A DNA stretch of 22,543 nucleotides, taken from the IMG/VR virus record IMGVR_UViG_3300023198_000970, positions 1 through 22,543 of that record, one strand, 5' to 3'. The stretch comes from a virus. The position numbers were made by a program, and so were the translations under genes. Every line of letters starts with the position of its first letter. Positions within the stretch are counted from its first letter, which is position 1. Positions 1 to 19,476 of this stretch are shown in pieces. The notes under the pieces are model-generated. The model saw only the letters and a list, made by a program, of their open reading frames with translations. It searched no databases and had not been told where the DNA came from.

Positions 1-186
1 AAGTCCTAACTCTATGCCGCCGGTGGACGGGACAACGATTTTCTCAAAAAAACTCTCCCCTTCCGCTTCAATAGTGTAGTCGCTGGTTGTTTGAAGTCCT
101 AACTCTATGCCGCCGGTGGACGGGACAACGATTTTCTCAAAAAAACTCGTTCCCTCGGCTTCAACAGTGTACTCACTAGTTGTTTG
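1..186 (-). repeat. Tandem 93-bp repeats in the fibre gene
   Basis: Copies start at 1 and 94, and a diverged copy boundary falls at 187, giving a period of exactly 93 bp (31 codons). Positions 1-55 and 94-148 are identical base for base, while the remaining 38 bp of each unit differ at several sites. The array probably continues beyond the window. Confidence 0.9.
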
Positions 187-360: not shown

Positions 361-371
361 ACGTCCACTCC

Positions 372-3144: not shown

Positions 3145-6100
3145 TACTTAACCTCAATCTGCCTGTAAGCGATAATGTCTCAATCAATTGTCGGATTTCC
3201 TCCACTTGCTCGGTCGGCCGAATCGCCTTCACGTTGAACGTTATATTTACGGGAGCGGCTGCCGCTCCAGCAGACGAAACAGTCTCCCCGACGTGCGCTT
3301 TTATCAGGCCGCTACCCTCTTCCATTCCGGGGAGCCGCAATAATTGTGACTTGGTTAGTGTGTCGGTGCCAGATTGGAAACCGAACATCCCTCCAATACC
3401 GCCGCCGCCAAAAGGATTAAAACTTCGAATAACCCCCGCCAAACGATTTAACGGATCAACCAGTATTCGAATACCCTCGGTCAAAGGCGTGAAAGCCCGT
3501 CTTAATTGCTCCAGCGGCGTCGCTAAGGCCCGAAGAGGTTCCATCATTTGCGCGACCACGCCTCTTAATTGATCTAATGCCCCTGATAAACTCTGAATGG
3601 GTTCCAGCACTTGCGTAACGCTCCCTATCAGTAATACAACGGCCTCTTTTAATTCCGCTAAAGATGACGCTAAAATTTGAACACTGCCGGCTAACGCGGA
3701 TAAGGAGCCCAACACCGCGGTTAAAACTTCGATCAGCCCTCGCAATATCTGCTCCAAACTACTTACGACCATTTTTAAGCTGTCTGTTACTATAGTTAAT
3801 GTTTGTATCTTTTCTAACAAATCGTCAATCGACATCAACATGGGCTCAAGCAAGACCAGAGCGTGATCCACGAGGAGCACTAGCGTGTTTAAAAGTGGCA
3901 CGAACCGTTCCACAATCGGTGTCAATCTTCGTAGCACGTTTCCAACACTCTTAAGAAGCGGAGCTATCGCTTCGATAACTGGGGCGAGCACTTCTTGTAT
4001 GATCGCGCTAAGTCCTTCCAGTCCTGCCGCAAATTTTTCGTTGCTCAATAACAATTCTGTGACAGCCCCAGCGATAGCTCCGCCGACACCACCGGATTGA
4101 AAGCCTGATATGGCCCCACCAACTCCGGTTATTCTACCGCCGATCGCCGATCCAATTTGAGACGCTGCACCGCCGACCCCGATCTCTCTGTCTTCTTCCG
4201 CTCTACCGGCCGGCAATGTGGCGGTCACTGGAGCGGGTGGACGTACAGGGATGCTTGGCATTGCTACAGCTGGTATCGCGTCCGGTATTGTCTCTAAAGT
4301 GTCCGCTATATTCTCTAATGTAGCGTCGAGATCTTTACTCGCTTCGTCCACGTCTTTAGCGTCTCTGCCAAAATTCTGCAGGTCTGTTCCCGCAGTGATG
4401 AAGGCGTTCCCTGTCGTGATCGCGTCCACAGACAAAGTGTTGCCCACTAATGTATAACTCAGATCTTTGCTGGCTTCATCGGCACCTACGATCGATCCAG
4501 CGAAATCGGCCACCGATGTGATTGCGCTACTAAAGCCGCTAGCCAAAGGACCGCGTATGTCCCGCGCTAATTCGACAACTTTATCTGACACACTACCGGT
4601 AGTTCCTCCTAGCGTGTCCAATGAGCGAATATTTTTCGAGATGACATCAGTCACGTTTACGCCGATTAGTTCCTTGAGCCCTTTAGCTAACGCTTGGACG
4701 GGCGTAACAACCCCCTGTATCTTTTCTTTTAAAGTGTCAAAGAACCCGGCGAATGGATCTATCCCCTTTTCTAGATCGTCTAATGTCTTTATTACAAGGT
4801 CAAGAGCCACGATTAACACATCGGTTATGAACTTGACTACCTCGGCGAACGCGTCAATCCAAGGTTCCATGTTGTTCTTAATAAAATCTACGATCACACC
4901 GCCGAACTTCAAAATCTCTGTGATAATTGTTCCGAGAACCTTTGTGACAATTGTTGCGATAATGTTAATGACTTTCCCGATGATCGTCTGCAGATTCTTA
5001 AACGCTTCCACAACATTTTTGTTGGACGTAACTATTTTGACAAATTCTTTGATGAAATCCGAGATAGCCCGCGCTAGCGGTTTTATACCATTGTCCCAGA
5101 CGCTGATCATAGTGTCTTCTAACGTGTCTAACAAATCTAGCATCGCCTCGGATTTTATAATGTAGCCTATCGCGATCAGCAAGGAGCCAAAACCACGGAC
5201 CAAAGGCGTGATTGCTTCTTTAACGTCATCAATTGCCGTCCGCATGCTCTCAAAGAACGTACGCATAGGAGCTTTATTGTCTTTAACAAAAGAGCTAAAA
5301 GCGGATACCATGCGGGTCGCGGTTTGCACAACGCCGCGTAAAAGCCCGTCCAGACTCGCAAAGATATTGATCTTAAGCCCTGACATAGCCGACCCGAACA
5401 TAATCGTATCACCTGTCAAATTATCAAGCCTTATCCTCGCCGCTTCTGACGCGGTGTTAGCTTGCTTTTGTTTATCAGCGAAGCCTCTTATGACATCTCC
5501 GCCTGCCTCAATTACTTTGAAGAACTTAGGAGCGGTCACTACACCTAAAATCGTGAATAAATCTTTTTGTGTGACTTGTCGCTCGTTGAGCAAGTCAACA
5601 ATGTCCGAAAATTTAGTAGTTGCGGGGTTTATCTGATCTAAAGAAATGCCGTAATTCATGAGAGCGACGTTGGCTTGTTTGGAGGGCTTGCTTAGTCTAG
5701 CTAGAGCAGTGTTTAACGCGGTACCAGCTTTGGAACCACGTACCCCGGCCTCTGCCATTGCGCCAAGGATAGAAGTTAAATCTTGGAAATTCATCCCCAT
5801 GGCCGACGCGGTACCCGCGGAATAGTCCATCGCGTAAGTCAGATCCGAAAAGTTTTGCGGCGAAGCACTGACAGTTTGTACCATCAAGTCGACCGCCTCT
5901 TTTGCGGCAAGACCCGACGTTTTGAAAATATTCATTTGAACCGCGGTCACGCGCGCGGAAGTAGCTAAGTCGGTTCCAGTGGCGGCTGCCAAATCCATCG
6001 CTTGCGCGGTAGTGGCCAAAACGCCAGCGGTGTCCATGCCAGCGCGCTTAAGCTCTTCCATCGCTCGCCCGGCCTCAATTGCCGTGAAAGTAGTGGTCTC

Positions 6101-6361
6101 GCCGATGCGCTGGGCCTCATCAGATAACTTCTTAAACTCCTCCGCGGTGGTTTTCGATATCGCCGCGACAGCGGACATTTGCGCTGAGAACCCCGAACCC
6201 TCTTCTATCACAGACTTGAAAGGTGCTGTAACCGCGCCCAATGCTTTCGACATGAGCTCAAAGCCTTGATTCATAGTCGTGACAGTAGAACCAAAGTTCC
6301 TCATGACGGGGGTCGCCGTGTCCCGCGCGGTTATTCTTGCTTCAATCTTAGCTCCAGCCAT
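3137..6361 (-). CDS. Tail tape measure protein (TP901 type)
   Basis: A 1074-residue protein, by far the longest tail gene. Residues 1 to about 340 carry the conserved tape-measure core: TARDTATPVMRNF at the start, then Ala/Thr/Gly-rich helices with SAVAAISKTTAEEF, GETTTFTAIEAGRAMEELKRAG and AEAGVRGSKAGTALNTAL. Hydrophobic helices follow at about 380-480. Residues 750-1000 are a long series of Leu/Ile/Val-rich repeats with recurring LxxLxxP spacing, likely an extended helical rod. At the usual rule of about 1.5 angstroms per residue, the tail would be near 160 nm long. The gene follows the chaperone pair and overlaps the hub gene by eight bases, the standard siphovirus order. Confidence 0.93.
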   Translation of the reverse strand: MAGAKIEARITARDTATPVMRNFGSTVTTMNQGFELMSKALGAVTAPFKSVIEEGSGFSAQMSAVAAISKTTAEEFKKLSDEAQRIGETTTFTAIEAGRAMEELKRAGMDTAGVLATTAQAMDLAAATGTDLATSARVTAVQMNIFKTSGLAAKEAVDLMVQTVSASPQNFSDLTYAMDYSAGTASAMGMNFQDLTSILGAMAEAGVRGSKAGTALNTALARLSKPSKQANVALMNYGISLDQINPATTKFSDIVDLLNERQVTQKDLFTILGVVTAPKFFKVIEAGGDVIRGFADKQKQANTASEAARIRLDNLTGDTIMFGSAMSGLKINIFASLDGLLRGVVQTATRMVSAFSSFVKDNKAPMRTFFESMRTAIDDVKEAITPLVRGFGSLLIAIGYIIKSEAMLDLLDTLEDTMISVWDNGIKPLARAISDFIKEFVKIVTSNKNVVEAFKNLQTIIGKVINIIATIVTKVLGTIITEILKFGGVIVDFIKNNMEPWIDAFAEVVKFITDVLIVALDLVIKTLDDLEKGIDPFAGFFDTLKEKIQGVVTPVQALAKGLKELIGVNVTDVISKNIRSLDTLGGTTGSVSDKVVELARDIRGPLASGFSSAITSVADFAGSIVGADEASKDLSYTLVGNTLSVDAITTGNAFITAGTDLQNFGRDAKDVDEASKDLDATLENIADTLETIPDAIPAVAMPSIPVRPPAPVTATLPAGRAEEDREIGVGGAASQIGSAIGGRITGVGGAISGFQSGGVGGAIAGAVTELLLSNEKFAAGLEGLSAIIQEVLAPVIEAIAPLLKSVGNVLRRLTPIVERFVPLLNTLVLLVDHALVLLEPMLMSIDDLLEKIQTLTIVTDSLKMVVSSLEQILRGLIEVLTAVLGSLSALAGSVQILASSLAELKEAVVLLIGSVTQVLEPIQSLSGALDQLRGVVAQMMEPLRALATPLEQLRRAFTPLTEGIRILVDPLNRLAGVIRSFNPFGGGGIGGMFGFQSGTDTLTKSQLLRLPGMEEGSGLIKAHVGETVSSAGAAAAPVNITFNVKAIRPTEQVEEIRQLIETLSLTGRLRLSNA

Positions 6362-6364
6362 GCC

Positions 6365-6613
6365 TCATCTTTGTTTAGAGTTTTCTTTTAAGATTCGAAA
6401 TTGATTTGCTATAACAGTAAACAATTTGACCAACCGCGCTGGCTGACTGTTGTAGCTTCCGCCGTTCGGCCAGCACCATTGGCACAATTCGCCATTCGAG
6501 CTGTTGTGGCAATTGAGATACATCTCAACCCAATCAGTCAATAAGATCCCATCCCACAAATTACAAGGATCACCGCCCCCCATTGTCATGTTACGCAATA
6601 TCCGCCCAATCAC
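6365..6613 (-). CDS. Tail assembly chaperone, -1 frameshift extension (T part)
   Basis: An 82-codon frame whose first codon, GTG at 6613, is exactly the codon reached if ribosomes slip back one base on the A_AAA_AAG site at the end of the preceding gene. It should therefore be made mainly as the C-terminal half of a fusion of roughly 213 residues, like lambda gpGT, rather than from its own start. The nearest purine-rich site is about 14 bases from the GTG, too far for good independent initiation. The product is unusual: C17, C35, C44 and C47, with a CQWC pair and an adjacent H36, could bind a metal. The tape measure gene starts three bases after its stop. The metal-site idea is an inference. 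Confidence 0.75.
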   Translation of the reverse strand: MIGRILRNMTMGGGDPCNLWDGILLTDWVEMYLNCHNSSNGELCQWCWPNGGSYNSQPARLVKLFTVIANQFRILKENSKQR

Positions 6614-7005
6614 TTTTTTACGTGATTCTCCTGCTTAGGTGACATAGTACTGATAGTAAACAAATGCGTGAGAATATTGACGCAATACAGCATAAACACA
6701 GTATGTTTTGTCAAATCGTCAACTACCGCCGCTCTCTCGCCCGTTTCGTCCTCAATGGTCATGCCTTCCAGGTTCTTACAATATTTGGGGACAATTTCAT
6801 CTGACACCTCTCTCAAAATAGGAGAGGAAAACTTTTCCATATAAAACGCGCTCCGTTGCTCCTCGCCCAATTCCTTGTTGTCTTGGGGGCTCATAGACGC
6901 CATAAACGCCATAACTCTTTGATAGTCCCCCTGATCCAGCGGGCGAACTTTAACTGTTACTCCTTTTTCGATTTCAAAAATCCTGGAACTCAGATTTACT
7001 TTCAT
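6610..7005 (-). CDS. Tail assembly chaperone (G part)
   Basis: A 131-residue soluble protein beginning with a beta-rich segment (MKVNLSSRIFEIEKGVTVKV) typical of tail assembly chaperones, followed by an acidic helical body. It lies between the tail tube and tape measure genes, the fixed place for these chaperones. A strong AAGGA site precedes the ATG at 7005. Its last codons form the slippery heptamer described separately, so most ribosomes stop at the TGA while a minority continue into the following frame. The short and long forms are expected to coat the tape measure during tail assembly and be absent from the mature virion. The family is inferred from position, size and frameshift. Confidence 0.8.
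   Translation of the reverse strand: MKVNLSSRIFEIEKGVTVKVRPLDQGDYQRVMAFMASMSPQDNKELGEEQRSAFYMEKFSSPILREVSDEIVPKYCKNLEGMTIEDETGERAAVVDDLTKHTVFMLYCVNILTHLFTISTMSPKQENHVKK
6613..6619 (-). promoter_or_regulatory. A_AAA_AAG programmed -1 frameshift site
   Basis: In the reading frame of the upstream chaperone gene the last codons are GTA AAA AAG TGA, which gives the canonical X_XXY_YYZ heptamer A_AAA_AAG directly before the stop. A GGAG element lies eight bases upstream of the heptamer, similar to the internal Shine-Dalgarno stimulator of the E. coli dnaX frameshift. A perfect 7-bp hairpin at 6513-6528 lies about 85 bases downstream, probably too far to act as the stimulator. Tail chaperone genes before tape measures very often use this mechanism. 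Confidence 0.85.
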
Positions 7006-7023
7006 AATATTCCTTTCAATTTA

Positions 7024-7974
7024 TCAATAATATTCTACTGTATTAACTAAAGTAACTTCAATAGCCGTGTTAGATCCTGTATCGAACATCGCCCCGGCCG
7101 TGAAAGGCATCTCAATTACTCCCGCGCCCGTAATAGTGGGCGTGGCGGACTTCATTCTCAAACGCGGGATATCAATCGTCAGCTGATTCGGTGCTTGATC
7201 TGTCTCAAAATTTAGCACCAATGGCACTTCGGTCTCATTGATATACGCGTCGTAATAAGAATGTTGTTGAAAAGTCAACGTACCCGTGATCTCAATCGTT
7301 TGTTGAGCTGTACGTTTGATCTTATGTGGACTATTAGACGTTTGTAAAATATGTCTAGCTGCCAAATTATTATTGACATTGATTGTCAAATTCTGAATGT
7401 CGATCAAGGGCACACTATTAAACGTTGAACTCGTTTGATCCCACTTGAATGGTTTCGCTGTCGGAAAAGTAGGGGACGAGGCTTCTTTCTTCGCGCTGCC
7501 AGCTCCGATGAAGCCAGCTGTCATCGTCATTAGTTGACCGTTCGCGATGTCGATCGACAAAGTGTTGCCGCACAAATCATAAAACAAGAACGCGCTTCCA
7601 ACGTCGCGATAAACTTCTGTTGTTAACAAATCAGTGGCCGCGAACTGATCAAAATCAGCAGTACGCGGTTTAAAAACATGTGTTTGTGTGTTCGTGTCGG
7701 ATGTTGTGCTAACTAACCCGATCACTGATTTGAGGAAATGCCCTAGTGACGCGGGGCTAGCTTCTTGTGTTACTTCCGCCTCAACAGTGAATATACCCTG
7801 ATGATAGGGTGACTCCGAGAAACGACCATACATGTTCGCTTCTGTTAATTGCTCTATGTTCGCTGTAAATGTTTCACCTGTGATCGCTACCGCCCGCAGG
7901 CTGCTCACTTGACTAGTCCCAAAACTATCTTGAAAGTTGACCATCAAATGGCTCTTCATTCCATATCCACTCAT
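7024..7974 (-). CDS. Major tail tube protein
   Basis: A 316-residue beta-rich protein upstream of the chaperone pair, the place of the tail tube subunit in siphoviruses. The N-terminus (MSGYGMKSHLMVNFQDSFGT) and the pattern of long alternating strands, with sections such as IEITGTLTFQQHSYYDAYIN and a C-terminal VEVTL-like strand, suit a tube protein that stacks in hexameric rings. No tail sheath gene lies next to it, which argues against a contractile tail. It starts with an ATGA overlap on the small upstream gene. I am fairly sure of the role from length, composition and order, though no single diagnostic motif settles it. Confidence 0.78.
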   Translation of the reverse strand: MSGYGMKSHLMVNFQDSFGTSQVSSLRAVAITGETFTANIEQLTEANMYGRFSESPYHQGIFTVEAEVTQEASPASLGHFLKSVIGLVSTTSDTNTQTHVFKPRTADFDQFAATDLLTTEVYRDVGSAFLFYDLCGNTLSIDIANGQLMTMTAGFIGAGSAKKEASSPTFPTAKPFKWDQTSSTFNSVPLIDIQNLTINVNNNLAARHILQTSNSPHKIKRTAQQTIEITGTLTFQQHSYYDAYINETEVPLVLNFETDQAPNQLTIDIPRLRMKSATPTITGAGVIEMPFTAGAMFDTGSNTAIEVTLVNTVEYY

Positions 7975-8171
7975 TGCTTGCCCTCCCGTTTAATCTGTTT
8001 GCTCTCACTAGTGATCTCTTTGGAGATCTCTTTGGGGATCTCTTTGACGACCCCACTAACTTTTAGGATTCGAAATTCCAGCTCACTAACCTCAATTTGC
8101 TGATTCGGGCTGGGCTCTCCGACAATCGGATTAAAACCAACGCCGGACCAAAGGCACTTAATCTTTTTCAC
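7971..8171 (-). CDS. Small charged protein of unknown function
   Basis: A 66-residue protein with a compact N-terminal half (GEPSPNQQIEVSELEFRILK) and a highly charged C-terminal tail made of short KEIxKEI units, encoded by near-repeats of GATCTCTTTGG at about 8012-8051 on the plus strand. Tiny genes in this position, between the tail terminator and the tail tube, are common in Mu-like phages (for example the DUF2635 type), but the resemblance is too weak to name it. It overlaps both neighbours by four bases, and this coupling supports that it is translated. A role in tail assembly is a guess. Confidence 0.6.
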   Translation of the reverse strand: MKKIKCLWSGVGFNPIVGEPSPNQQIEVSELEFRILKVSGVVKEIPKEISKEITSESKQIKREGKQ

Positions 8172-8605
8172 GCGAACACCTCCGCTATAATATTCATTAC
8201 ATTAGTAAACATATAATCTTCTTCGTCCAAATCGATGTCAAAAGGAGAAACATCAAACCCGATCAAATTATTGACAGTCCCCATCAGGCCGCGGTCACTA
8301 TTGATCACGGTGAACACGCGGTTTGTCAATTCATCCAAGGTTTGGATTCCTTTCATAGTGTCGTTAGGATCATATGTTATTTGGGTAAAAACAGGTATAC
8401 TGTATTGGGCCATCCACGGTTCATTTATGTTTGCTCTAAAGGGATCCAGAACATAAGACGGCATACTTACGTTCACCCAAAAACTGTTATCAGGATCCGT
8501 GTTCATCGCTTGATAGTAAGCTATCGTCGCCCCTGAGTTTTGCAGAGCGATGTCACTGTTCAACATTGTGTAAACAGCGTTTGTGATTGAGTTTGTATAT
8601 ATCAT
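8168..8605 (-). CDS. Putative tail terminator / tail completion protein
   Basis: A 145-residue protein without a motif I can name. Its size, the N-terminal helix (ITNAVYTMLNSDIALQ) followed by mixed strands, and its position between a gpG-like morphogenesis protein and the tail tube match the terminator proteins that cap a finished tail and bind the head. The acidic C-terminal section (DVSPFDIDLDEEDYMF) is distinctive. It overlaps its neighbours by ATGA junctions on both sides. The assignment rests on order and size; a minor connector protein is the main alternative. Confidence 0.58.
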   Translation of the reverse strand: MIYTNSITNAVYTMLNSDIALQNSGATIAYYQAMNTDPDNSFWVNVSMPSYVLDPFRANINEPWMAQYSIPVFTQITYDPNDTMKGIQTLDELTNRVFTVINSDRGLMGTVNNLIGFDVSPFDIDLDEEDYMFTNVMNIIAEVFA

Positions 8606-9066
8606 CCGATGGTCTTGTTCATAAATTTCGCTAAAACTGGTTGTATGATCTTCCCCAATTGTTTGTCGCTAGGGAAAATCTTCCTTTGTGGGAGCCTCTT
8701 TCTAGCGTTCCCGTTTTCATGACTCGCTGAGTAATTGACTCCTGACTTTAAGACGCCATCTCGATTGTTCGCTGTTCTTGACCAACGACCAAACAAAGCT
8801 CCAGTGTCCCTTAATATGCGAGGCCTACCTCCTCCCCCGCCTTTCCGCCGTCCGGCGATTGTTGAGTCGGCTAAGGGTTCCCAATGATACCGCGAGTTGT
8901 CGTGTAGTTTACCTTCATTTTGGAAATTACGTTTCACCCATTGTTCTAGTACAATAACCGCCGCCAAGAAAAAAACTCTTTTGTTCTTTAGCCGTCTAAT
9001 CGCTTGTGAGTTGACTTGTATCAATTGTCTTTGGCCCGTCACTTTAATATCAAATAATTTGGTCAT
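8602..9066 (-). CDS. Mu gpG-like phage virion morphogenesis protein
   Basis: A 154-residue protein that fits the virion morphogenesis family of Mu gpG. The family pattern is clear: WEPLADSTI at about residues 63-71, a basic Gly-rich loop (GRRKGGGGGRPR), ILRDTGALFGRW, VNYSASHENG, then a PQRKIFP segment near the C-terminus. Proteins of this family act at the head-tail junction or in tail completion. It sits between a connector-like gene and a terminator-like gene, consistent with that role. The overall charge is strongly basic. The start at 9066 has a GGGG purine stretch eight bases upstream. Confidence 0.85.
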   Translation of the reverse strand: MTKLFDIKVTGQRQLIQVNSQAIRRLKNKRVFFLAAVIVLEQWVKRNFQNEGKLHDNSRYHWEPLADSTIAGRRKGGGGGRPRILRDTGALFGRWSRTANNRDGVLKSGVNYSASHENGNARKRLPQRKIFPSDKQLGKIIQPVLAKFMNKTIG

Positions 9067-9068
9067 TA

Positions 9069-9527
9069 TTATACCCCGTTATCCTGATCCCACAAAAGAC
9101 TGATGTAGTCCGTATCGACCCTTTGGTCTTCTGGATCCCGCATGTCAAAAGTGCTCTTATAACTCTCAGTAGTGCTAAACGCGTCGAAATTGGTCTCCTT
9201 AGTGACGAATACCGCCGACCCATCATCCAAAATCATAGGCGCGTTACCGCAGCAAATGTCCGTGATTCTTTTCTCTAAATTATCGGACAATTCTCTTGAG
9301 TCATCAGGGTTACGAGTTCGCAACAATATACCCAAATACGCGAACCTGACGTTCAAATCCCTAGCGGTAGCGTTGTTAGAACTAAAAGGGGTAGTAAACT
9401 TCCCACCTAACTCCTCATTGACCCGCAAAGCTCCGTACGGCAACCACCCAGACTCGATCTGGGATTGTTTGATGTTCGCCAAGGAATATGTGAAAGTAAA
9501 GTCCTCATACGTAGCGTAAGTTGACAT
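9069..9527 (-). CDS. Head-tail connector protein (Mu gp36 / DUF1320-like)
   Basis: A 152-residue protein beginning STYATYEDFTFTYSLANIKQ and continuing with a helical core in which ATARDLNVRFAYLGILLRTR and LEKRITDICCGNAPMILDD resemble the DUF1320 family of Mu gp36, related to head-tail connector proteins that dock below the portal. Its position, immediately before the gpG-like gene, matches Mu. No clear Shine-Dalgarno site precedes the ATG at 9527, which lies two bases after the stop of the small membrane protein, so initiation may depend on coupling. Confidence 0.72.
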   Translation of the reverse strand: MSTYATYEDFTFTYSLANIKQSQIESGWLPYGALRVNEELGGKFTTPFSSNNATARDLNVRFAYLGILLRTRNPDDSRELSDNLEKRITDICCGNAPMILDDGSAVFVTKETNFDAFSTTESYKSTFDMRDPEDQRVDTDYISLLWDQDNGV

Positions 9528-9529
9528 AT

Positions 9530-9754
9530 TTAAACTTTTGGTTTAAGAGGTGAATATCGACTTATTAGTTTTAATAAAATTCCGATGTATCCATTGTTAA
9601 CTCGCTTCCACCATCTATCGGCTTTCTCGCAGCCCGAAGCGTTGACTGTCAGATCACAAACAACGTAAATACCGCCCAATAGCATCATGACCGAACCCGC
9701 TATGGGGTACTCAGTGACTACATACGATAGTAAACTGGTTAATAGTTCTTGCAT
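9530..9754 (-). CDS. Small membrane protein, putative holin
   Basis: A 74-residue protein with one clear membrane segment at about residues 18-38 (IAGSVMMLLGGIYVVCDLTV) and a basic C-terminal end. A strong AGGAG site six bases before the ATG at 9754 lies inside the end of the endolysin gene, and the two genes overlap by 16 bases. A small membrane protein directly after an endolysin is most simply a holin or holin partner. One membrane segment would make it a class III-like or pinholin-type protein. The function is inferred from context, with no family motif recognised. Confidence 0.6.
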   Translation of the reverse strand: MQELLTSLLSYVVTEYPIAGSVMMLLGGIYVVCDLTVNASGCEKADRWWKRVNNGYIGILLKLISRYSPLKPKV

Positions 9755-10188
9755 CTTGTCTCCTTTGTGTTTAACTTTTTCCGCGTGTATTCTAACGCTT
9801 CTTGATAACTAACATATTCTTTGCCGACCCTGCCCCACGACGCCCTATCGCCCCGGACATCTAAGTGGAAGCCTGGCGAATGCCAGTCTGGATAAATTCC
9901 AACCCCGACTTTCTCGATCAAACCTTTGACGTGCAAATAAGTCATAATCAAAGACTCTGATTCTAGAAACGGGATCCCGATCACATGAAAATCGGCGGCG
10001 TTACCCAAATAATGCTGGCTCTTTTTGCTATGTCCATTCCCGCCGAACCCGCAATGAATTTTGATACGACATCCGTGCGGCAACATGCCGCGCGTCTTGT
10101 CGAGCAGGAACAACAAATCTTTATTCATTTTCGCTGGATCACCCCATGCCTCACGCGGTGAGAAATGATCTAAAATATTCCATATCAT
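9739..10188 (-). CDS. Endolysin, peptidase M15 family
   Basis: A 149-residue enzyme expected to cut peptidoglycan cross-links at the end of infection. The zinc-peptidase signature is plain: SQHYLGNAADFHV at residues 57-69, giving likely zinc ligands H59 and D66, and GFHLDVRG at 106-113 giving the third ligand H108. The CGFGG and GIYPDW sections around them are typical of the M15A group. Length agrees with single-domain phage M15 lysins, and there is no separate cell-wall-binding domain or signal peptide, so release should need the holin. It overlaps the spanin-like gene upstream (ATGA) and the holin-like gene downstream, forming a lysis cassette inside the virion operon. Confidence 0.88.
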   Translation of the reverse strand: MIWNILDHFSPREAWGDPAKMNKDLLFLLDKTRGMLPHGCRIKIHCGFGGNGHSKKSQHYLGNAADFHVIGIPFLESESLIMTYLHVKGLIEKVGVGIYPDWHSPGFHLDVRGDRASWGRVGKEYVSYQEALEYTRKKLNTKETRCKNY

Positions 10189-10550
10189 CCTATCTTCCCC
10201 CTGCCCTCGGATCGCATGTCGTTCATTATATATATCAACTTGTCAAGTAAATTATTCATTTTAGTAACCGAATTATCGGAATTTTCCGCCATTTTCAACA
10301 GAAACCGGTTGTGTACAGCTTGAGCTTGTTGCTCGTCTCTGATTACTTCTAACTTTCCAATGATTGTAGTGCTTGTTTGTTCTTGTTCGATGTGACTCTT
10401 ACCACAGGACTCGTTGGCCCGTTTCACACTTGCCGAAACTTCTCTGATGTCCGCTTTAAACTCGATAAAATTTAAAAGTATGGCGCTCAGGATCGTCAAA
10501 AACGTAAGTAACCCGGAGAATCGATTCAACTTTGTAAGCGCGCTGACCAT
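10185..10550 (-). CDS. Membrane-anchored coiled-coil protein, spanin-like
   Basis: A 121-residue protein with an N-terminal membrane helix at about residues 11-31 (SGLLTFLTILSAILLNFIEF) and then a long polar helical region with heptad character, ending in a short basic tail. One anchor followed by an alpha-helical periplasmic domain is the layout of an inner-membrane spanin (Rz), which would help fuse the envelope membranes in a Gram-negative host. XhlA-like membrane proteins look similar and are the main alternative. No lipoprotein outer-spanin partner was seen inside or beside it. It is the first gene after the GC-rich hairpin and overlaps the endolysin by ATGA. Confidence 0.55.
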   Translation of the reverse strand: MVSALTKLNRFSGLLTFLTILSAILLNFIEFKADIREVSASVKRANESCGKSHIEQEQTSTTIIGKLEVIRDEQQAQAVHNRFLLKMAENSDNSVTKMNNLLDKLIYIMNDMRSEGRGKIG

Positions 10551-10571
10551 CTCGTCTATTTGTTTTTATAT

Positions 10572-10618
10572 GGCCGCGCGCTGAATCGTCGGTTTTTCTA
10601 ACTTTTCAGCGCGCGGCC
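10572..10618 (-). terminator. GC-rich hairpin after the glycosyltransferase gene
   Basis: A perfect 14-bp inverted repeat, GGCCGCGCGCTGAA and its complement, with a 19-base loop, lies between the stop of the 960-aa enzyme gene (10645) and the start of the lysis cassette (10550). On the minus strand the stem is followed by ATATAAAAAC rather than a U-run, so it may pause, process or stabilise RNA rather than terminate fully. A short T4 stretch follows on the plus side. Confidence 0.5.
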
Positions 10619-10644
10619 CGTTTTCATTATGCCTACTTTATGAG

Positions 10645-13527
10645 CTAAGCGTATTTCTCATTGCGTTCAATCGGCTCACTTTGCTGGCGTACCACCAGGC
10701 TCAATAAATCCGTTATGTCCTGTTTGCGCGTTACGGCCCCCACGAGGGCTTTCTGCTTTTCTAACTCGGGCATATCTTTGCTAACCGCAAGATTAAACGA
10801 AAACTTATAGGTGTTGCGATTCGTCAACAATTCAGCCGCTTCGGACATATAAGGAATTGATTCGAACACTAACCTGAGGTCGACGTTCTCTGTTATGAAC
10901 GCGCGCCAGATGTCAATGATTTCTTGCGCGCGTTTTCTCATGACATCTGTAAATTGATGCCCCTGCTCCCAGTCGAACCGGTTCATGTGCGCTAAATCCC
11001 GCAGCCATAGGTGTCTGCCGAGCAAGCGTCCCGGGTATTTCTCTCGATCTCGAACCATGAGGGGGAAATTTCTATGAAATCGCTCCCGCCTAATCTCTTC
11101 TGTATCGTAGCCGTTATGACAAATACATGACTGCTTTGCCGGCAGCATAAAAGAATGTCCAACACCTTCGTTCAATTCTGTTTCTGGATGCTCGTGCACA
11201 ACTCCATGAAACTTAACCGCTTTGTGATTTCGAAACAAACGGTACGGAAAGTCTGTTTTCAGCAAGCCCGCGGGATCGGCGGAGAAATGATGTTGCGCCA
11301 CCGCGTAAGCGTTAAATTGATTGTTTCTCAAGAACGGGACTAGCGTGTCTTGACCGCGCCAAATTTCATCATCATCAATCCACAAAATCCACTCGCGCGA
11401 AGCCCGCCCAATGGTAGAGTTCCTGGCCGCGTCAAACCCGGTGTCCAAGGGCGATTGTATCGGTATCAATTTTACGTTCGCTATCTTATCTAAAGAACAC
11501 GACACTTTGTCTACGTCGCCATCGACGCCAATCACGAACTCATCAACAAAAGGGGCGACACTCTCTACTGTTTCCCGTATCGTACCACTTGTGGCACGTG
11601 TAATCATGCAACAAGAAACTGTTTGCCGTGGCTTTTGGCACTTCATTTTTCGCTCGTAATCTATATGACCGACGGGGTCAGCATCTGAATCTCTCACCCA
11701 CCCCCACACATGCGAGCCTATTGCTAGACCCGTTTTAGTGCGCGCTCCTGAAATGTATTTGATATCTTTACCCTTTTTGTTTTTAATAATGTCATCAATG
11801 TCCCCGGGCTCAAAGTGATGCATGTGCTCAACAGGATGATTCTCGTCATTTCGTTGTGCTTCGATAGGGCCGGAAGGAGTAGAGAACATGACGCGCCCAC
11901 CTTGCTTGACGCAAGCCTCTAACTTTACGATGAATGGATGATAATCGTAAATATGCTCAAGAGTATCTAAGCACAGCACAGCGTCGAACTCATCTTTAAA
12001 TTTGTCCAAGGGCTCTGCTGCCGTGACGTACGTGACATTAGTTATTTGGTTCTTCTCGACGTGCTCATTAGCGATCTTTATTTGCTGAGAAGAGATGTCC
12101 ACGCCGACAAACTCTAGGTCTCGAAATTCTTTAGCGAACGCGCTTGTCATCTGACCCACGCAGCACCCGTAGTCCAGGACCTTGGATCCGGGAGGTAACG
12201 TGTTGAGGTGCGCTAGCACTGGTATCAGGCGATGCAAACATAGAATATTATCGTCGCCTAGCATATGCGTGTCACCTTTGTCTATATTGTACTTTGCGAT
12301 GTCATCATAAAACTTAGTCGTACCTACCAAAGAGACGTCGGAACAATTTTCCCACGCGGCTATCGGATAGTTTTCTTTCACTCCAAGTTTCGCGGCTGCC
12401 GCGAAATCTGAGTTATGACGAAGATGGTCAAATAGCCCCTTTTTGTCACTAGTTATCTTAGCAAAGTCCTTTTCGACCTCACTTTCTAGCATGTCAACCG
12501 ACTTCGACCAGGTGTACGACTCAGCTTTCTTGAGAGCTAAGTTGTGCAGAGTATTCCATTTTCCAGGGTTGTTCAACAAATAAATAATTTTGCTGGCCAT
12601 CTCGTCCATTTTCGCGAAATACACGCCGCCGTCCTTCAATGTCTCGGGCAAAGCCCCAACTTCTGTTGTCAGAAAGGGATTACCTGACACTTGAGATTCC
12701 ATGGCTGTGATGCAGCTAGTTTCCTCAAACTCCGTCGGATAAACATGCAACCAGCACTTCGACATAGTGTCAGCTAACTGCTGCTTAGACAAATGGCCAA
12801 TCATTTTAACGTTCTCTAATTGCTCGCATCTTCCGTACAAGTACTGATAATAGTCACGCATATCAGCAGTAGTGTTATCATATCCGCAGACTAGCAACCG
12901 GACGTTTTGATCTTTCAATTGCTCCATAACGCCGTCAGGCTTAACCAGATTCTCCAGTCCTCGCTCTGGCCGCGAACTGTAGATCATGGTTCGGTGCTTA
13001 ACCTTTTCCTCAACACTGGCGGGTTGAAACAACCTGGGATCGATAGCGTTTGGCAACACAGAGATGAAATTGTTGTCGATAGCATACACTTGCTTGACTT
13101 GCGCTTTGTGCCAATCTGATACCGCGAAAAACCGATCCACGTTCCACAGCATCCCGTTGATGAGGGGAATAAATCGCTTCAGCGCGAGGTCATGTGTCCA
13201 AAAATAATTCAGCTTAGAATTATAATTCTGCGCGAACACCCCTGGTGCTCGTTGGGCCAGCAAAACGTCATGTGGCACTTGCGTGGCGTGCATTTGAAAA
13301 TTCATTCCGAAGGGATGTTCCTTTGATCGCGGGCCTATCGGTAGCCACACGACACCGTCGATATTTTGTTCCTTGTCTGTATTCGAGAAACAAGCCACCT
13401 CGTGCCCTCTCGCTCGCAACTCAGTAGCCACATAATAGCCCGCTGATTCGGATCCGCCTAACGACTTGCCGGCCCGAATCGTATCACCATTCAGCGGCAT
13501 ACCGGGGATATAAATAAAATATTTCAT
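10645..13527 (-). CDS. Three-domain glycosyltransferase-methyltransferase-glycosyltransferase
   Basis: A 960-residue protein with three enzyme domains. Residues 1-355 are a GT-B fold glycosyltransferase of the GT4 type, with a GGSESAG loop at 24-30, VLPNAID at 157-163 and the acidic donor-site segment EFEETSCITAMES at 266-278. Residues 400-610 are a class I SAM-dependent methyltransferase: VLDYGCCVGQ at 450-459, GVDIS at 475-479 and LCLDTLEHI at 518-526. Residues 635-850 are a GT-A (GT2-like) glycosyltransferase with VDEFVIGVDG at 661-670 and the metal-binding WIDDDE at 716-721. The C-terminal 110 residues are helical. All key motifs look intact. Placed between capsid and lysis genes, it could build a methylated glycan on virion proteins or on a host surface molecule; the acceptor is unknown. 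Confidence 0.88.
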   Translation of the reverse strand: MKYFIYIPGMPLNGDTIRAGKSLGGSESAGYYVATELRARGHEVACFSNTDKEQNIDGVVWLPIGPRSKEHPFGMNFQMHATQVPHDVLLAQRAPGVFAQNYNSKLNYFWTHDLALKRFIPLINGMLWNVDRFFAVSDWHKAQVKQVYAIDNNFISVLPNAIDPRLFQPASVEEKVKHRTMIYSSRPERGLENLVKPDGVMEQLKDQNVRLLVCGYDNTTADMRDYYQYLYGRCEQLENVKMIGHLSKQQLADTMSKCWLHVYPTEFEETSCITAMESQVSGNPFLTTEVGALPETLKDGGVYFAKMDEMASKIIYLLNNPGKWNTLHNLALKKAESYTWSKSVDMLESEVEKDFAKITSDKKGLFDHLRHNSDFAAAAKLGVKENYPIAAWENCSDVSLVGTTKFYDDIAKYNIDKGDTHMLGDDNILCLHRLIPVLAHLNTLPPGSKVLDYGCCVGQMTSAFAKEFRDLEFVGVDISSQQIKIANEHVEKNQITNVTYVTAAEPLDKFKDEFDAVLCLDTLEHIYDYHPFIVKLEACVKQGGRVMFSTPSGPIEAQRNDENHPVEHMHHFEPGDIDDIIKNKKGKDIKYISGARTKTGLAIGSHVWGWVRDSDADPVGHIDYERKMKCQKPRQTVSCCMITRATSGTIRETVESVAPFVDEFVIGVDGDVDKVSCSLDKIANVKLIPIQSPLDTGFDAARNSTIGRASREWILWIDDDEIWRGQDTLVPFLRNNQFNAYAVAQHHFSADPAGLLKTDFPYRLFRNHKAVKFHGVVHEHPETELNEGVGHSFMLPAKQSCICHNGYDTEEIRRERFHRNFPLMVRDREKYPGRLLGRHLWLRDLAHMNRFDWEQGHQFTDVMRKRAQEIIDIWRAFITENVDLRLVFESIPYMSEAAELLTNRNTYKFSFNLAVSKDMPELEKQKALVGAVTRKQDITDLLSLVVRQQSEPIERNEKYA

Positions 13528-13561: not shown

Positions 13562-13843
13562 TTACATAAGGTCAAAAGTTTCAGAATATAAAGCTTGCAG
13601 CAAATTATCTTTCGTCGCTGACTCTTTAGCGTCGCTCTTATTCACTAGTAAATCACAAATCTCTTTCTTTGATAAATCAAAGTTATCAAAGAAATCATCT
13701 ACTAAACTGTTCAAATTCGCCAATCTTTTAACTAGCGCGGCTTTTTCCTCAATCAACTGCTCTCGTTCATCGTCACCAACAGTTCCCCCGCGGAGTCTGT
13801 CCCTCTTTTCTAAAGGATGCCCGGGTAACCCACTTAAAGACAT
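13562..13843 (-). CDS. 93-aa protein of unknown function
   Basis: A short protein with a Gly/Pro-containing N-terminus (LSGLPGHPLEKRDRLRGG), a charged helix likely to form a coiled coil at about residues 25-50, and an acidic C-terminal half. It follows the major capsid gene and has a good GAGGT site before the ATG at 13843. A small head-completion or joining protein is plausible from position, but no family is recognised. A weak hairpin lies between it and the capsid gene. Confidence 0.6.
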   Translation of the reverse strand: MSLSGLPGHPLEKRDRLRGGTVGDDEREQLIEEKAALVKRLANLNSLVDDFFDNFDLSKKEICDLLVNKSDAKESATKDNLLQALYSETFDLM

Positions 13844-13889: not shown

Positions 13890-14852
13890 TTACTGACTAG
13901 AATTAACAGAGCTGATCGTGATACCAAACGATGTGGCTGTAACCTTTTCGTCTTGATAGTACCCCACCTCAAATTCATCAGTTTTAGTTTTACTGTCGAA
14001 AGGATGTCGCTCAACACTCATGTTAGCTAATCCTGGCTTCGTCCACCTGAAGGAGTAACCATACGACGGGGTCTCCAGGTTCGGTCGTGTTGGGGCGTAA
14101 TAAATAAACACATCATCGCCCCACAGCGACGTTAAACTGAGCCCTTGTCCTTCGTCCGCGGAGTTATATTGACCCGCTCCGACTAACACACGATCAACAC
14201 CGAACAACGCCGCCACTTGCGACTCGGTAGCGTCCATATCGCCCCCATCCACGCCCGTGCTTTTAGTCTTGTTGATGATTGTGTCATTTCGCTTAGCGTT
14301 CCGCCAAGCTTCTTCACCGAACAAAATGTTGTTCGCTTTATAACCCGTGGAGTCCCAAAAGTAGTCTAACGCGGTGTTCACATCCGCCCATGGATTTGAG
14401 TTAGTGTAATCCGCCCAAGCCGACCCCACTAAATAAATGGTGTTGACATTAGTCGCGTTAGTGACGATGCTCGACAGTCGCAACTCCCACTGCATCATAA
14501 GCTTGTCTTTTATATTCATGACCTTTGTCGCTTCTAAGTCGCGAATGAAAGCGGGGTCAGCGTTCTTTCTGTCTTCAACTGTGACCTCGCCCTTGAGCGC
14601 GTAATTGTTAGCAAAATAAAAGTCAGACCCAACCTGCAACTGAATTCTATTAGCTTGCGTCCCGGGGGAACGCTTGTCGTCCTCGATTCGAAACAAATCC
14701 GCTTGCGAATATGTTTTGATCAGATCACTCTGATTTCCCACGCCCACCATTGGGAAGATCAAATCAGCGATCATCCCCTGCGGTCTGTAGTTAATCGCAA
14801 CATTAGACAAATACTTGTCTACGTGCAATGATCGTCCTTGTGTATAGCTCAT
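13890..14852 (-). CDS. Major capsid protein
   Basis: A 320-residue protein after the protease/scaffold and cement genes, where the HK97-fold major capsid protein belongs. The start (SYTQGRSLHVDKYLSNVAI) and the sections FPMVGVGNQSD, KRSPGTQANRI, NNYALKGEVTVEDRKNADPA and VLVGAGQYNS resemble capsid proteins found with Mu-type portals and proteases. Length is right for a protein without a cleaved delta domain, since a separate nested scaffold exists. A GGGAGAG site eight bases upstream of the ATG predicts strong translation. This assignment is confident from order and pattern, although the fold itself cannot be read from sequence by eye. Confidence 0.87.
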   Translation of the reverse strand: MSYTQGRSLHVDKYLSNVAINYRPQGMIADLIFPMVGVGNQSDLIKTYSQADLFRIEDDKRSPGTQANRIQLQVGSDFYFANNYALKGEVTVEDRKNADPAFIRDLEATKVMNIKDKLMMQWELRLSSIVTNATNVNTIYLVGSAWADYTNSNPWADVNTALDYFWDSTGYKANNILFGEEAWRNAKRNDTIINKTKSTGVDGGDMDATESQVAALFGVDRVLVGAGQYNSADEGQGLSLTSLWGDDVFIYYAPTRPNLETPSYGYSFRWTKPGLANMSVERHPFDSKTKTDEFEVGYYQDEKVTATSFGITISSVNSSQ

Positions 14853-14874: not shown

Positions 14875-15270
14875 TTATAATTTGACCGGTGTTATGAAAT
14901 TGAAAACAGCAACACCAACGCCCCCGCTAGACACTGACCGTGTGCCGTTGGTCCCTCCTCGAAATCGTGCGATAAAAGAGTCGCTAGTCACCGCGACTCT
15001 CATGTAACCCGAATTTGCAGTAACTAAAGGAGCATCAGGTGTATCAATCGGCGTTGCCGCTACAAACTTTAGCATACCCAAGTAACTGCAGGTAATATGT
15101 TCGCCTTGCTTGCCGACGGTTTGTATAATACCGATCGCTGACTTGGTTTCGCTAGCAAGCAGCCCATCTTCCGCGATCGCTTTATGTATGTGCCCCGTTC
15201 CGGCCTCCGCGTTGTCAAGATTCTCCCCTGCGATACGCGTCTCAGTAAATCTGGTGTTATCAGTAGCCAT
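14875..15270 (-). CDS. Capsid cement (decoration) protein
   Basis: A 131-residue beta-rich, Gly/Thr/Val-rich protein encoded between the protease/scaffold and the major capsid, the standard place of head decoration proteins (lambda gpD-like or DUF2190-like). Its central part (AIAEDGLLASETKSAIGIIQ and VGKQGEHITCSYLGMLKFV) fits such a small trimeric capsid-stabilising protein. A very strong GAGGAG site six bases before the ATG at 15270 predicts high expression, in keeping with a protein present in hundreds of copies. The name rests on position, size and expression signal. Confidence 0.72.
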   Translation of the reverse strand: MATDNTRFTETRIAGENLDNAEAGTGHIHKAIAEDGLLASETKSAIGIIQTVGKQGEHITCSYLGMLKFVAATPIDTPDAPLVTANSGYMRVAVTSDSFIARFRGGTNGTRSVSSGGVGVAVFNFITPVKL

Positions 15271-15271
15271 T

Positions 15272-15811
15272 TCAATCTCCTCTGCCGTGTTGAGCTGCTG
15301 CCCAATCGTTGTACTCTCTCGCTAATCCTGGATTAGCGGTGAACATAATATCAGACGCCGCCTTGAATGTCAAATTAGCGTTTGTGGATTGAACTTTCGC
15401 GGTCGCGATAACCACCCTCTCGTCTATCGTCTCTCCCGCCGCGTACCCGTCCAACTGTTCCGCTTCCGCGCCTTTCGGCATACGCTCTGAGAACTTCTCG
15501 ACTAGCTCCCCAATCACGCTTTGCGGGAGCATCAGTTCTTGACCCTCGGAAAAATTAGCGCCTTGTCCCTCGATCGCTTTCTCTAACTTCGAAAAAAGCG
15601 CGGGAGTCATGCACCCAGCCTTAACTTTCTCTTGGTACGGTGTCAAAAATTCTTTCTTCTTTTCCGCAAAAATCCGCGCCTTATCGTTCTCCGAAAAGCT
15701 CAAAATCTCCGCGCTAAGCCCCTTATTCGCTAGCTCGGCTTCTTGAAGTTGTTTCTCAAGAGCCAGCATCTTTCTTTGCGAACTCAGATCTATTGCTTTT
15801 TCTTCGCTCAT
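15272..15811 (-). CDS. Nested scaffold protein from internal start
   Basis: The codon for Met170 of the protease gene (ATG at 15811) begins MSEEKAIDLSSQRK, exactly where the protease domain ends. A GGAGAA stretch lies about 9-11 bases upstream, a usable though slightly distant ribosome site. Starting here gives a 179-residue, charged, helical protein in the same frame, matching the in-frame nested scaffolds of Mu (I/Z) and lambda (C/Nu3). The free scaffold would be needed in excess over the protease to organise the prohead. Confidence 0.65.
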   Translation of the reverse strand: MSEEKAIDLSSQRKMLALEKQLQEAELANKGLSAEILSFSENDKARIFAEKKKEFLTPYQEKVKAGCMTPALFSKLEKAIEGQGANFSEGQELMLPQSVIGELVEKFSERMPKGAEAEQLDGYAAGETIDERVVIATAKVQSTNANLTFKAASDIMFTANPGLAREYNDWAAAQHGRGD

Positions 15812-16318
15812 CTTATTTGATTCTCCGTTTAAAATTGTGGGCTCGGTGAACACCAGCTGACAACCAGCGGTGGCATCTTCCCCACTTTCACTTAAAAACA
15901 CCCGCAAATCATCCAGTGTCTTGACCGCGGGTATATCCGCGCCAAGCAAAGCAACCCCGCGGATGAACCAGCCGGGAGACTCCCGGAACTCTAACTCGGC
16001 GGAAACGCTAGTGTACAACCCGCGTTTTATCGCCTGGTAGATTATGTCGGGCATGCTCTTAAAGTCACTTATTATTTTGTCCGCTTTTATTCTCGCGTTG
16101 CCCAGGAATCCTAAAGCGGGGTCGCCATCGGTTTGCCCTTGCAATATTTGTTTAGAACTATGCCCCAATTTTAATTTAGGTTTCAACCCCTCTTCACTCA
16201 TTAATGTTTGCGTGTTCTTGACTATATCAGTCAAATCACCTTTTATGAATTTGAAGGTGCCTTGCATACCACGCCATGTACCAACCGCGAATATCTCAAC
16301 GTCTTTTAACTCACTCAT
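15272..16318 (-). CDS. Prohead protease with scaffold domain (Mu I-like)
   Basis: A 348-residue protein with two parts. Residues 1-150 look like the Mu I serine protease: GHSSKQ at 52-57 supplying the likely catalytic His53, ALGFLGNARI at 68-77, and LYTSVSAELEF at 101-111 with the probable nucleophile at S104 or S106. Residues 170-348 are charged and helical, with a coiled coil near 180-205, typical of a scaffold. The protease is expected to cleave scaffold and itself during head maturation. An internal start at residue 170 would give the scaffold alone, as with Mu Z. It overlaps the previous gene by four bases. Confidence 0.85.
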   Translation of the reverse strand: MSELKDVEIFAVGTWRGMQGTFKFIKGDLTDIVKNTQTLMSEEGLKPKLKLGHSSKQILQGQTDGDPALGFLGNARIKADKIISDFKSMPDIIYQAIKRGLYTSVSAELEFRESPGWFIRGVALLGADIPAVKTLDDLRVFLSESGEDATAGCQLVFTEPTILNGESNKMSEEKAIDLSSQRKMLALEKQLQEAELANKGLSAEILSFSENDKARIFAEKKKEFLTPYQEKVKAGCMTPALFSKLEKAIEGQGANFSEGQELMLPQSVIGELVEKFSERMPKGAEAEQLDGYAAGETIDERVVIATAKVQSTNANLTFKAASDIMFTANPGLAREYNDWAAAQHGRGD

Positions 16319-17148: not shown

Positions 17149-19476
17149 TTAATTGAACCCCTTGGCCGGTCGCACCGACGCCAATGTTTTACTTGGTTTC
17201 CACCGGTCAAATACAGTGATGGGTATCATCACTGATCTGCAATTAAAATGATTGGGCGGGGTGATTGTGCTCCACACCGGATCATTTCTCTTAAATCTTC
17301 GTCCGTTGTACGCGTTGCAAAACTCAGTCGTTCTACTATCGAGAGTCGCGGCGTATTCCAATCCGGCGACAAAATCCCCCAATTGCGGCTCGGCGTAAAC
17401 GCTCAACTGCGCTTGGTTGAACGCGGTCGTGATATTAGTTCTAGCTATCGTCTCTAATCTCGCTCGATTAGACTTCTCAGTAACTTGACCGGCGGCGTTT
17501 GGTGTTCCTAAAGTAGTGGGAAGCACTTCTCGTAAATCATCGACGATTGCTTTGTAAGATTTCTCTTCCGTGATCCCGTCAATTAAAATCTGTTGCGCTT
17601 GCGCGACCAGGTCATTGCTCAAATCACCGGTGATCGTAAACGCTTTGCTTCGTATCCATTCGGCGACTGCTTCTAAATCTACCCCATCAATAAAATTTGC
17701 CACGTTCCAATGCTCATTAGCGCAAGCCATCGATTTTGTTAAAGACATCGCTAACGTGAGCTTGTCTCGTGTCGCCTTCGGTTGAGCCTTAATTGCGCTC
17801 ATCAAGGTTTCTTTGGCCTGAGCTCGTCCCAGCTCGTAATTAACTCTTAAGTTACTGTCTATCGTTTTAGATAACGCGGCCTTGCTCGCGTCAGATATGG
17901 CCGCTGCCAACCCAACACTAATCTTGTCATATTTAATCTTGTTTTTATCACTCGGTAAATTCTTAATTGTCACTTTGTAATAAGCGTCGATCTCTTTGAA
18001 CATTTGGCCGTAAGGAGCGGACATATCTTTCACGAAAGATTTCTCATTGTCATCGAACTCCGTTTTCAGCTCAACGAAATCTATTCTTGACTCGAAGCTT
18101 TGTGTCGCTCCCTCCACAAACTTCGCGACGGGGGAGGCAGCGTCTAGCTTCTCGTCCGTTTCATCAGCTTTTGGTTTTTCTTGCTCTTGCTCGTTTGGCT
18201 TTGGTTTTTCTTGCTCGTTTGGCTCTGGTTTTTTTTGCTCGTTTGGCTCGTCTTTGGTCTTTTCTCGTTTACCGTACAACAGCAATTCTCGTGTCCTCTC
18301 CTCGTCCTCGAAAGTATTGACAACAACCCCGCTTGAGGCGGCCTCACTCCAAGCTTTCGCGACATCGCGCCGTTGGTCGACTGTAAAGTTCTCAAACTTA
18401 AAGATAGGGAAATCTTTAACGCCAAAATTGTACCAAGCCAATTGCGAGAAAAACTGCTCGTTCATCACGTCAGCTAAATAATCACCTTGCTCCTTGACAA
18501 TCATCATGAAAGAGTTGAATTGCGTGTCACCCAGTGCCCGGGAACCAGTTGTGCCTCTTTCTGAGAATCCCAATAAGTCTGGAACCAACAACGCTTTAGC
18601 GATCTCTCTGTTTTGCACCGTTATAGCTTTCTCGAAAGCGTCGGTGTCCTGACCATCTTTCACGTCCAAGTTCCAACCTTGCGGAACCATGAACCCCGTT
18701 GCCTTTTGGACGTTCTGTAGCATCTTCTCCAATTTATTTCGCTGCAGCGGAGACAAAGCCGGGGCGTCCTTCTCAGGCGTCGCGACTAAGAACCCCCCCG
18801 CGATTCTCTCTAACCAAATTGACCAAAATTTATTAACTATATCCTTGACCCAGTATGGCCGATAGGCCGCTTTTAAATCGCTGTCACCCCAAACAGGGTC
18901 TAGATCTGGGTTATTGATATAAATAATAAACTTCTTCGGGTTCAATCGCTTGTCGCTGCCGCGTTGATCTTGTATTAAAGCTTTGACATTGTCGAAGTCA
19001 TCTAATTGAAACTGAAAGGTCTCATATGGGCGCGACTTTATCGATCGAATAAACCAGTAGTCACGTTTCTTGAACTGACCCACCTGCCAAATCTTCTCTG
19101 ACACACTATAACCTTGGGCTTTTCCTAGCATCACTGATTTTAGGCTCTTGATCCAAGTACCACGTAAAACAATGTCAAGATTATGATTAAAGAACTCAAT
19201 AATGTCGTCTTGCATGGGATCGTCTGACTGCTTAACAAAGTTATATTGTCGAGATATAATTATATTGACCACTAAATTATAGACCGCTTTGACTTGCGCG
19301 TCATTGAGCATCTTTCTGTAGATCCCAGTGCCCTTCTTACCGACTAGCACATCGGGATTGAATGACTCGAAGTTCCCCCCGAACGACAAGAACGCCGACT
19401 CTCCCCACGCGGTCTCATTTTTGCTCGGCGCGGGTTTGTCACCGTTGGTCTTAAATTTAGCGGTTTTCTCTAACAT
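17149..19476 (-). CDS. Portal protein fused to MuF head morphogenesis protein
   Basis: A 775-residue fusion of two proteins usually encoded separately. Residues 1-400 match the portal of the Mu gp29 (DUF935) type, with YRKMLNDAQVKAVYNLVVN at 53-71, WFIRSIKSRPYETFQF at 141-156, VPDLLGFSERGTTGSRALGD at 298-317 and a helical clip/wing region. Residues 405-443 are a repetitive Lys/Glu/Pro/Asn linker. Residues 450-775 carry the MuF domain: ARTNITTAFNQAQ at 678-690, ATLDSRTTEFCNAYNGRRF at 710-728 and PPNHFNCRS at 740-748. The portal forms the dodecameric DNA entry ring; MuF proteins are minor head components. It overlaps the terminase nuclease gene by seven bases. Confidence 0.9.
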   Translation of the reverse strand: MLEKTAKFKTNGDKPAPSKNETAWGESAFLSFGGNFESFNPDVLVGKKGTGIYRKMLNDAQVKAVYNLVVNIIISRQYNFVKQSDDPMQDDIIEFFNHNLDIVLRGTWIKSLKSVMLGKAQGYSVSEKIWQVGQFKKRDYWFIRSIKSRPYETFQFQLDDFDNVKALIQDQRGSDKRLNPKKFIIYINNPDLDPVWGDSDLKAAYRPYWVKDIVNKFWSIWLERIAGGFLVATPEKDAPALSPLQRNKLEKMLQNVQKATGFMVPQGWNLDVKDGQDTDAFEKAITVQNREIAKALLVPDLLGFSERGTTGSRALGDTQFNSFMMIVKEQGDYLADVMNEQFFSQLAWYNFGVKDFPIFKFENFTVDQRRDVAKAWSEAASSGVVVNTFEDEERTRELLLYGKREKTKDEPNEQKKPEPNEQEKPKPNEQEQEKPKADETDEKLDAASPVAKFVEGATQSFESRIDFVELKTEFDDNEKSFVKDMSAPYGQMFKEIDAYYKVTIKNLPSDKNKIKYDKISVGLAAAISDASKAALSKTIDSNLRVNYELGRAQAKETLMSAIKAQPKATRDKLTLAMSLTKSMACANEHWNVANFIDGVDLEAVAEWIRSKAFTITGDLSNDLVAQAQQILIDGITEEKSYKAIVDDLREVLPTTLGTPNAAGQVTEKSNRARLETIARTNITTAFNQAQLSVYAEPQLGDFVAGLEYAATLDSRTTEFCNAYNGRRFKRNDPVWSTITPPNHFNCRSVMIPITVFDRWKPSKTLASVRPAKGFN
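18148..18264 (-). repeat. Degenerate repeats coding the portal-MuF linker
   Basis: Units of about 24 bp based on TTGCTCGTTTGGCTTTGG (plus strand) recur about three to four times, encoding successive NEQ-(K/E)KP-(E/K)P peptides. The array stays in frame and is a likely site of length variation by slippage. Confidence 0.8.

Follow-up and report, generated by a model that had tools for sequence, protein, structure and literature searches.

A three-domain glycosyltransferase-methyltransferase fusion linked to the capsid gene in a lineage of uncultured tailed phages

Described systems of virion and protein glycosylation

To our knowledge, virion glycosylation in phages is known from a few mycobacteriophages. 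Phage-encoded glycosyltransferases (GTs) are reported there to modify capsid and tail tube proteins, for example Che8 gp110 and Corndog gp38 (PMC12363180). The A064R protein of chlorovirus PBCV-1 (638 aa) combines two rhamnosyltransferases with a methyltransferase (MT; PMC9614988), while WsaE of Geobacillus stearothermophilus has the order MT-GT-GT and serves an S-layer glycan (PMC2943079). Transfer of sugars directly to polypeptides is described for GmaR, which places GlcNAc on flagellin (PMC9638930), and for glycocin enzymes of the SunS kind, which attach a sugar to Cys or Ser/Thr of bacteriocin peptides (PMC8620827, PMC6405829).

The viral record analysed here, referred to throughout as the window (22,543 nucleotides), encodes a 960-residue protein in which GT4, methyltransferase and GT2 domains are fused. 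In A064R, too, a single viral polypeptide unites a pair of GT domains with an MT domain, and that protein makes the methylated terminus of the glycan carried by its virus's major capsid protein; but its domain order is GT-GT-MT, and it acts on N-glycans of a eukaryotic virus. When PDB sequences were searched with the GT2 profile, no match up to E 0.01 was an A064R chain, of which only part has been solved. WsaE is likewise a soluble protein that combines two GT domains with a capping 2-O-methyltransferase; compared by description, it differs in its domain order, in being bacterial and in acting on lipid-linked rhamnan. SunS, ThuS and GmaR have neither GT4 nor MT domains. In the Che8 record, three separate GT genes are annotated towards the end of the genome, and no MT fusion is present; when gp108 and gp110 were compared with the GT2 and GT4 domains of the enzyme, hhalign probabilities were under 1% and homology was not found. 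In the metagenomic phage ctKR88 (MW202524), GT and MT genes also follow directly after the major capsid gene, but this is a podovirus-type phage in which the genes are separate, including a GT2-TPR-GT4 fusion, and the MT is unfused; the cluster occupies positions 1656-11978 of MW202524 (L226). The likeness to A064R, WsaE and mycobacteriophage virion glycosylation lies in function, not in demonstrated ancestry.

The fusion gene and its setting

The 22.5-kb window contained a Mu-like portal/Mu F-like fusion, a head protease, a major head protein and an M15-type endolysin, all on the same strand. The initial annotation had placed the enzyme gene between capsid and lysis genes, and this position was confirmed by the phrog_1005 head protein upstream and the endolysin downstream. 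The relevant features were as follows.

17149..19476, minus strand: portal (Mu-like) fused to Mu F-like head morphogenesis protein (PF06074 E 2e-48, PF04233 E 2e-16)
15272..16318, minus strand: head maturation protease (phrog_3894, phrog_976)
14875..15270, minus strand: putative small head (decoration-type) protein, from its position before the capsid gene; conserved cluster DEC
13890..14852, minus strand: major capsid (head) protein (phrog_1005 E 4e-64), directly upstream of the enzyme in most relatives
13562..13843, minus strand: small 93-aa ORF between capsid gene and enzyme, no Pfam match
10645..13527, minus strand: GT4-methyltransferase-GT2 fusion, 960 aa, whole ORF including stop codon
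12472..13527, minus strand: GT4 domain (GT-B, retaining type), residues 1-352, with GGSES loop, RPERG and EX7E (E269/E277)
11668..12471, minus strand: linker (~353-435) and class I SAM-dependent methyltransferase (~436-620), with DxGCxxG 452-458, D477, E524-H525 and H568
10648..11667, minus strand: GT2 (GT-A) domain and C-terminal helical part, residues 621-960
10185..10550, minus strand: 121-aa ORF directly downstream of the enzyme and before the endolysin, no Pfam/PHROG match; probably lysis-associated, given that position
9739..10188, minus strand: peptidase M15-type endolysin (phrog_894 E 2e-9)
9069..9527, minus strand: putative neck/connector-type gene (t5) closing the slot, assigned by position, no Pfam match

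In many relatives, small ORFs fill the same position between capsid gene and enzyme, and the t5 gene comes directly after the enzyme. Promoter-like matches in the window did not exceed those in shuffled sequence (11 vs 9.4); terminator-like matches did (12 vs 5.9), with positions that mark no clear operon boundary. The large terminase consisted of two ORFs on the minus strand (19470-20249 and 20262-20993); each half is close in length to a PHROGs family of its own (phrog_4758, phrog_5573), and a split terminase may thus be a regular feature of such phages. On the tail side, an ORF running off the window (1-375, minus strand) contained short repeats of about 33 residues (GLQTTS-YT-EAEG-SFFEKIVVPSTGGIEL).

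The fusion ORF began with ATG, had zero internal stops and was unremarkable in base composition within the window. Three complete enzyme domains with intact motifs had been claimed for it from the outset, and Pfam, motif conservation and structure prediction all bore this out. Pfam matches were non-overlapping, each domain being above its curated cut-off, and followed the order GT4 (PF13439 at 24-164, PF00534 at 177-325, with PF13692 also above cut-off), SAM methyltransferase (PF13489 at 442-578, E 1e-16) and GT2 (PF00535 at 638-746, E 8e-7). Among 51 sequences, the GT4 EX7E motif was present with E (43) or D (8) at position 269 and E at position 277 (48). In motif I of the methyltransferase, C455 was invariant (51/51), while D452 (47/51, the rest E), G454 (49/51) and G458 (50/51) were nearly so; the second glycine of GxGxG was mostly A or C among relatives, and the acidic residue after beta-2, D477, occurred in 51/51. 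The GT2 module had the motifs DxDE (718-721; D718, D720 and E721 kept in 51/51), HEH (778-780), HxGY (804-807) and RxxRxxRN (813-820). An AlphaFold2 model of the whole enzyme, based on an alignment of 51 relatives, had a mean pLDDT of 91.1 and a pTM of 0.90. Since this confidence was high and pLDDT fell below 50 only in a short stretch (386-396), the model predicts a single ordered assembly of the three domains.

Conservation of the fusion and its linkage to the capsid gene

Searches with a single sequence retrieved nothing useful from viral and genome contigs, and no full-length match to the fusion was present among the 50,697 phage records searched. A related phage (L003), reached through its capsid protein (41% identity), carried a full-length enzyme copy that was 39% identical. 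With a two-sequence profile, at least 100 relatives of the enzyme were retrieved from IMG/VR, most of them full-length, and 80 were kept. The non-redundant full-length copies (n = 53) had a median pairwise identity of 37%, and motifs at all three active sites were kept across them. Purifying selection acts on all three domains, because dN/dS was low in each where calculable (0.04-0.21 per domain, 12 pairs of close relatives) and the active sites were conserved. Dozens of other phage contigs carry a full-length orthologue at the same location, and the presence of the fusion in this slot is therefore beyond chance; the gene is not a one-off but is conserved across a whole phage lineage. The domain order had been described as unusual. 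This held for the phage records searched; it did not hold for the uncultured lineage, where the order is the norm, and enzymes with two GTs and an MT exist elsewhere (A064R, WsaE).

The major capsid gene lay at most 4 kb upstream of the enzyme in 62 of the 68 loci with enough sequence. The six exceptions were L074 and a near-identical group (L056, L057, L059, L060, L079); the latter contigs had T4-like replication genes, and the fusion was found there beside a radical SAM gene, without this capsid type. When the search was reversed and loci were retrieved by capsid similarity, the full fusion was present in 44/44 of those with at least 3.5 kb downstream of the capsid gene; the capsid query itself derived from loci that bear the enzyme, and comparison of contig names placed 21 of the retrieved loci on contigs already in the enzyme-search list and 23 on contigs outside it. 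A wider capsid search produced a tree with a clade of 74 non-redundant phages (support 0.99), 73 of which had the fusion. Capsid and enzyme distances were correlated (r = 0.78), a value reached by 0/2000 permutations. The fusion was absent from this position in phages with more distant capsids, including the isolates RDJL Phi 2, RcapMu and Lsp-JY19 (capsid approximately 28-31% identical). Some capsid relatives without the fusion (L215:11148-14944; also L219 and L220) had other sugar-type genes downstream of the capsid gene, such as a nucleotide-sugar epimerase (phrog_540) and a methyltransferase.

Four loci (L167, L169, L171, L186), which are three when made non-redundant by capsid, had the GT4-MT-GT2 gene in its usual slot but on the strand opposite to the head operon. 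Loss of the enzyme from these loci was thereby ruled out, and strict late co-transcription of the enzyme is not universal, because the gene is inverted in them. A programmed inversion switch gained no support, as the longest inverted repeats listed per locus did not bracket the gene borders.

Variation was also seen in gene content. An extra stand-alone GT4-like gene occurred in L004, L005, L007 and L009-L012; a GT4-MT protein without GT2 in L006 and L152; and two tandem GT4-GT2 fusions without MT after the capsid gene of L164 (2122-4203 and 5056-7125). A gene resembling sulfotransferases by eye, with no Pfam match, was found in L034, L042 and L046. Radical SAM genes were often located between the portal and protease genes, or beside the enzyme. 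This cassette variation fits the tailoring of a glycan, in which the roles of the added genes are putative. The radical SAM cluster comprised 37 genes in 26 loci, and pairs of these genes recurred in a fixed slot near the capsid genes (e.g., L003:7999-8691 and 8873-9625).

The acceptor and the role of the enzyme

The GT2 module gave the clearest pointer to the acceptor. Its profile matched GmaR (E 1e-27), SunS (2e-24) and ThuS (3e-19) among PDB sequences, with TagF next at 1e-6, and profile alignments identified HE, HxGY and RN motifs common to the module and SunS/ThuS/GmaR. Modelled alone, the module was closest in fold to SunS (Z 21.5 over 277 residues, rmsd 4.6) and ThuS (20.4), the next match being 14.7, and the SunS/ThuS alignment spanned nearly the whole module; GmaR was not among the fold matches listed, though it headed the sequence search. 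The module scored 48 bits against the SunS family TIGR04195, where the cut-off is 350, and stands outside that family of peptide S-glycosyltransferases, which it would resemble in its mode of action. Some relatives in the SunS/GmaR group act on lipid-linked sugars, such as the GT2 enzymes WaaE/LgtF, and a protein acceptor is therefore not given by homology alone. The GT4 domain had structural matches to MshA, sucrose-phosphate synthase and other GT4 enzymes (Z 31-33), and this likeness gives no pointer to the acceptor.

Three acceptors had been considered in the initial annotation, i.e., a virion protein, newly made DNA and a cell-surface sugar. The first of these is now better supported as the likeliest, through the lineage-wide linkage to the capsid gene and the proximity of the GT2 module to protein glycosyltransferases. 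The enzyme is probably a trifunctional, soluble, late protein whose substrate is a virion protein of the phage itself; the major capsid protein, or another head protein encoded in the same block, is the most likely target of glycosylation. The major capsid protein is the leading candidate, being favoured because the enzyme gene is linked to its gene; the small head protein encoded at 14875..15270 is a possible acceptor. Which acceptor, sugars and linkage are involved, in what order the reactions run and how the phage benefits are matters of inference, the late timing and protein acceptor resting on position and homology. Late in infection, the soluble enzyme would encounter newly made head protein; the SunS/GmaR-like GT2 domain and its helical C-terminal part would bind the protein and put the first sugar on a Ser/Thr or Cys side chain, a second sugar would be added by the retaining GT4 domain, and the class I methyltransferase would O-methylate the product to form a cap. 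The suggestion that one protein could yield a methylated disaccharide is supported, as a product predicted from the domains. Sugar donors are probably supplied by the host, because an NTP_transferase-type sugar nucleotidyltransferase was present in 0/13 near-genome-length relatives. The phage may benefit through shielding of the particle or altered adhesion to surfaces.

The Ser/Thr-rich capsid C-terminus was tried as the acceptor site and rejected; it was common in the main clade and missing from the marine enzyme-bearing clade, and thus follows one clade rather than enzyme presence. The acceptor need not be this capsid protein, since lysis genes adjoin the enzyme in the window and the T4-like group lacks this capsid; decoration or fibre proteins are possible instead. 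A version of the virion-protein reading in which the target is a head fibre, tail tube or tail fibre has a minor but appreciable chance of being correct. In many relatives, large repetitive or fibre-like genes of surface type (clusters c11, c59, c64, c28, c29) separate the enzyme from the neck gene, and the T4-like group without this capsid gene likewise has c11 close to its enzyme gene, although this cluster may be united by shared repeats only. The mycobacteriophage tail tube is glycosylated too (PMC12363180). However, the slot contains no such surface-type genes in the window, nor in the many relatives that have the neck gene immediately after the enzyme.

Modification of the host cell surface (LPS or another glycan) during infection, which might block superinfection or prevent progeny from adsorbing to debris, is unlikely. 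The GT4 fold is shared with enzymes whose substrates are small molecules and lipid-linked sugars, many phage GTs are read in this way (PMC7029224), and lysis genes adjoin the enzyme in the window. Against this, no flippase or membrane GT gene was recognised within the window, nor did inspection of the enzyme sequence and model bring out any long hydrophobic stretch; the gene is linked to and co-diverges with the capsid gene, not with tail-fibre or lysogeny genes, and the GT2 module is nearest to protein and peptide transferases. A cell-surface sugar is a possible but less likely acceptor.

Decoration of modified bases in the phage genome is very improbable. DNA-glycosylating phage GTs do exist, according to work cited in PMC12619734; yet a thymidylate synthase/hydroxymethylase-type gene (PF00303) was found in only 3/13 near-genome-length relatives, against 13/13 for the fusion, in records that may be incomplete. 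The enzyme gene is moreover grouped with capsid genes, and its GT2 module resembles protein and peptide transferases, so that newly made DNA is not supported as an acceptor. For recent capture as host cargo without a phage role, nothing specific speaks beyond the occurrence of single domains of the GT4, MT and GT2 kinds in bacteria; it is refuted by the present data, the gene being old, syntenic in dozens of divergent phages, co-diverging with the capsid gene and low in dN/dS in all domains.

Implications for the lineage

Glycosylation of the phage's own virion protein, if correct, has a bearing on the lineage as a whole. Che8 has separate GT genes away from its capsid gene, whereas here one three-domain enzyme travels with the capsid gene. 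The family provides concrete candidates for protein glycosylation with capping by one polypeptide, and its natural domain variants (GT4-GT2, GT4-MT and added sulfotransferase-like genes) may help to show the job of each domain. Because the enzyme is nearly universal in the lineage and travels with the capsid gene, a decorated virion is suggested to be a basic trait of these phages; none of the searched phage records has the full enzyme, and such a trait would be missed in cultured phages. More tentatively, and with rather less than even confidence, this whole uncultured tailed-phage lineage may carry an obligate, methyl-capped capsid glycan, made in the cytoplasm directly on the protein by a single polypeptide that would start, extend and cap it, and inherited with the capsid gene in the head module.
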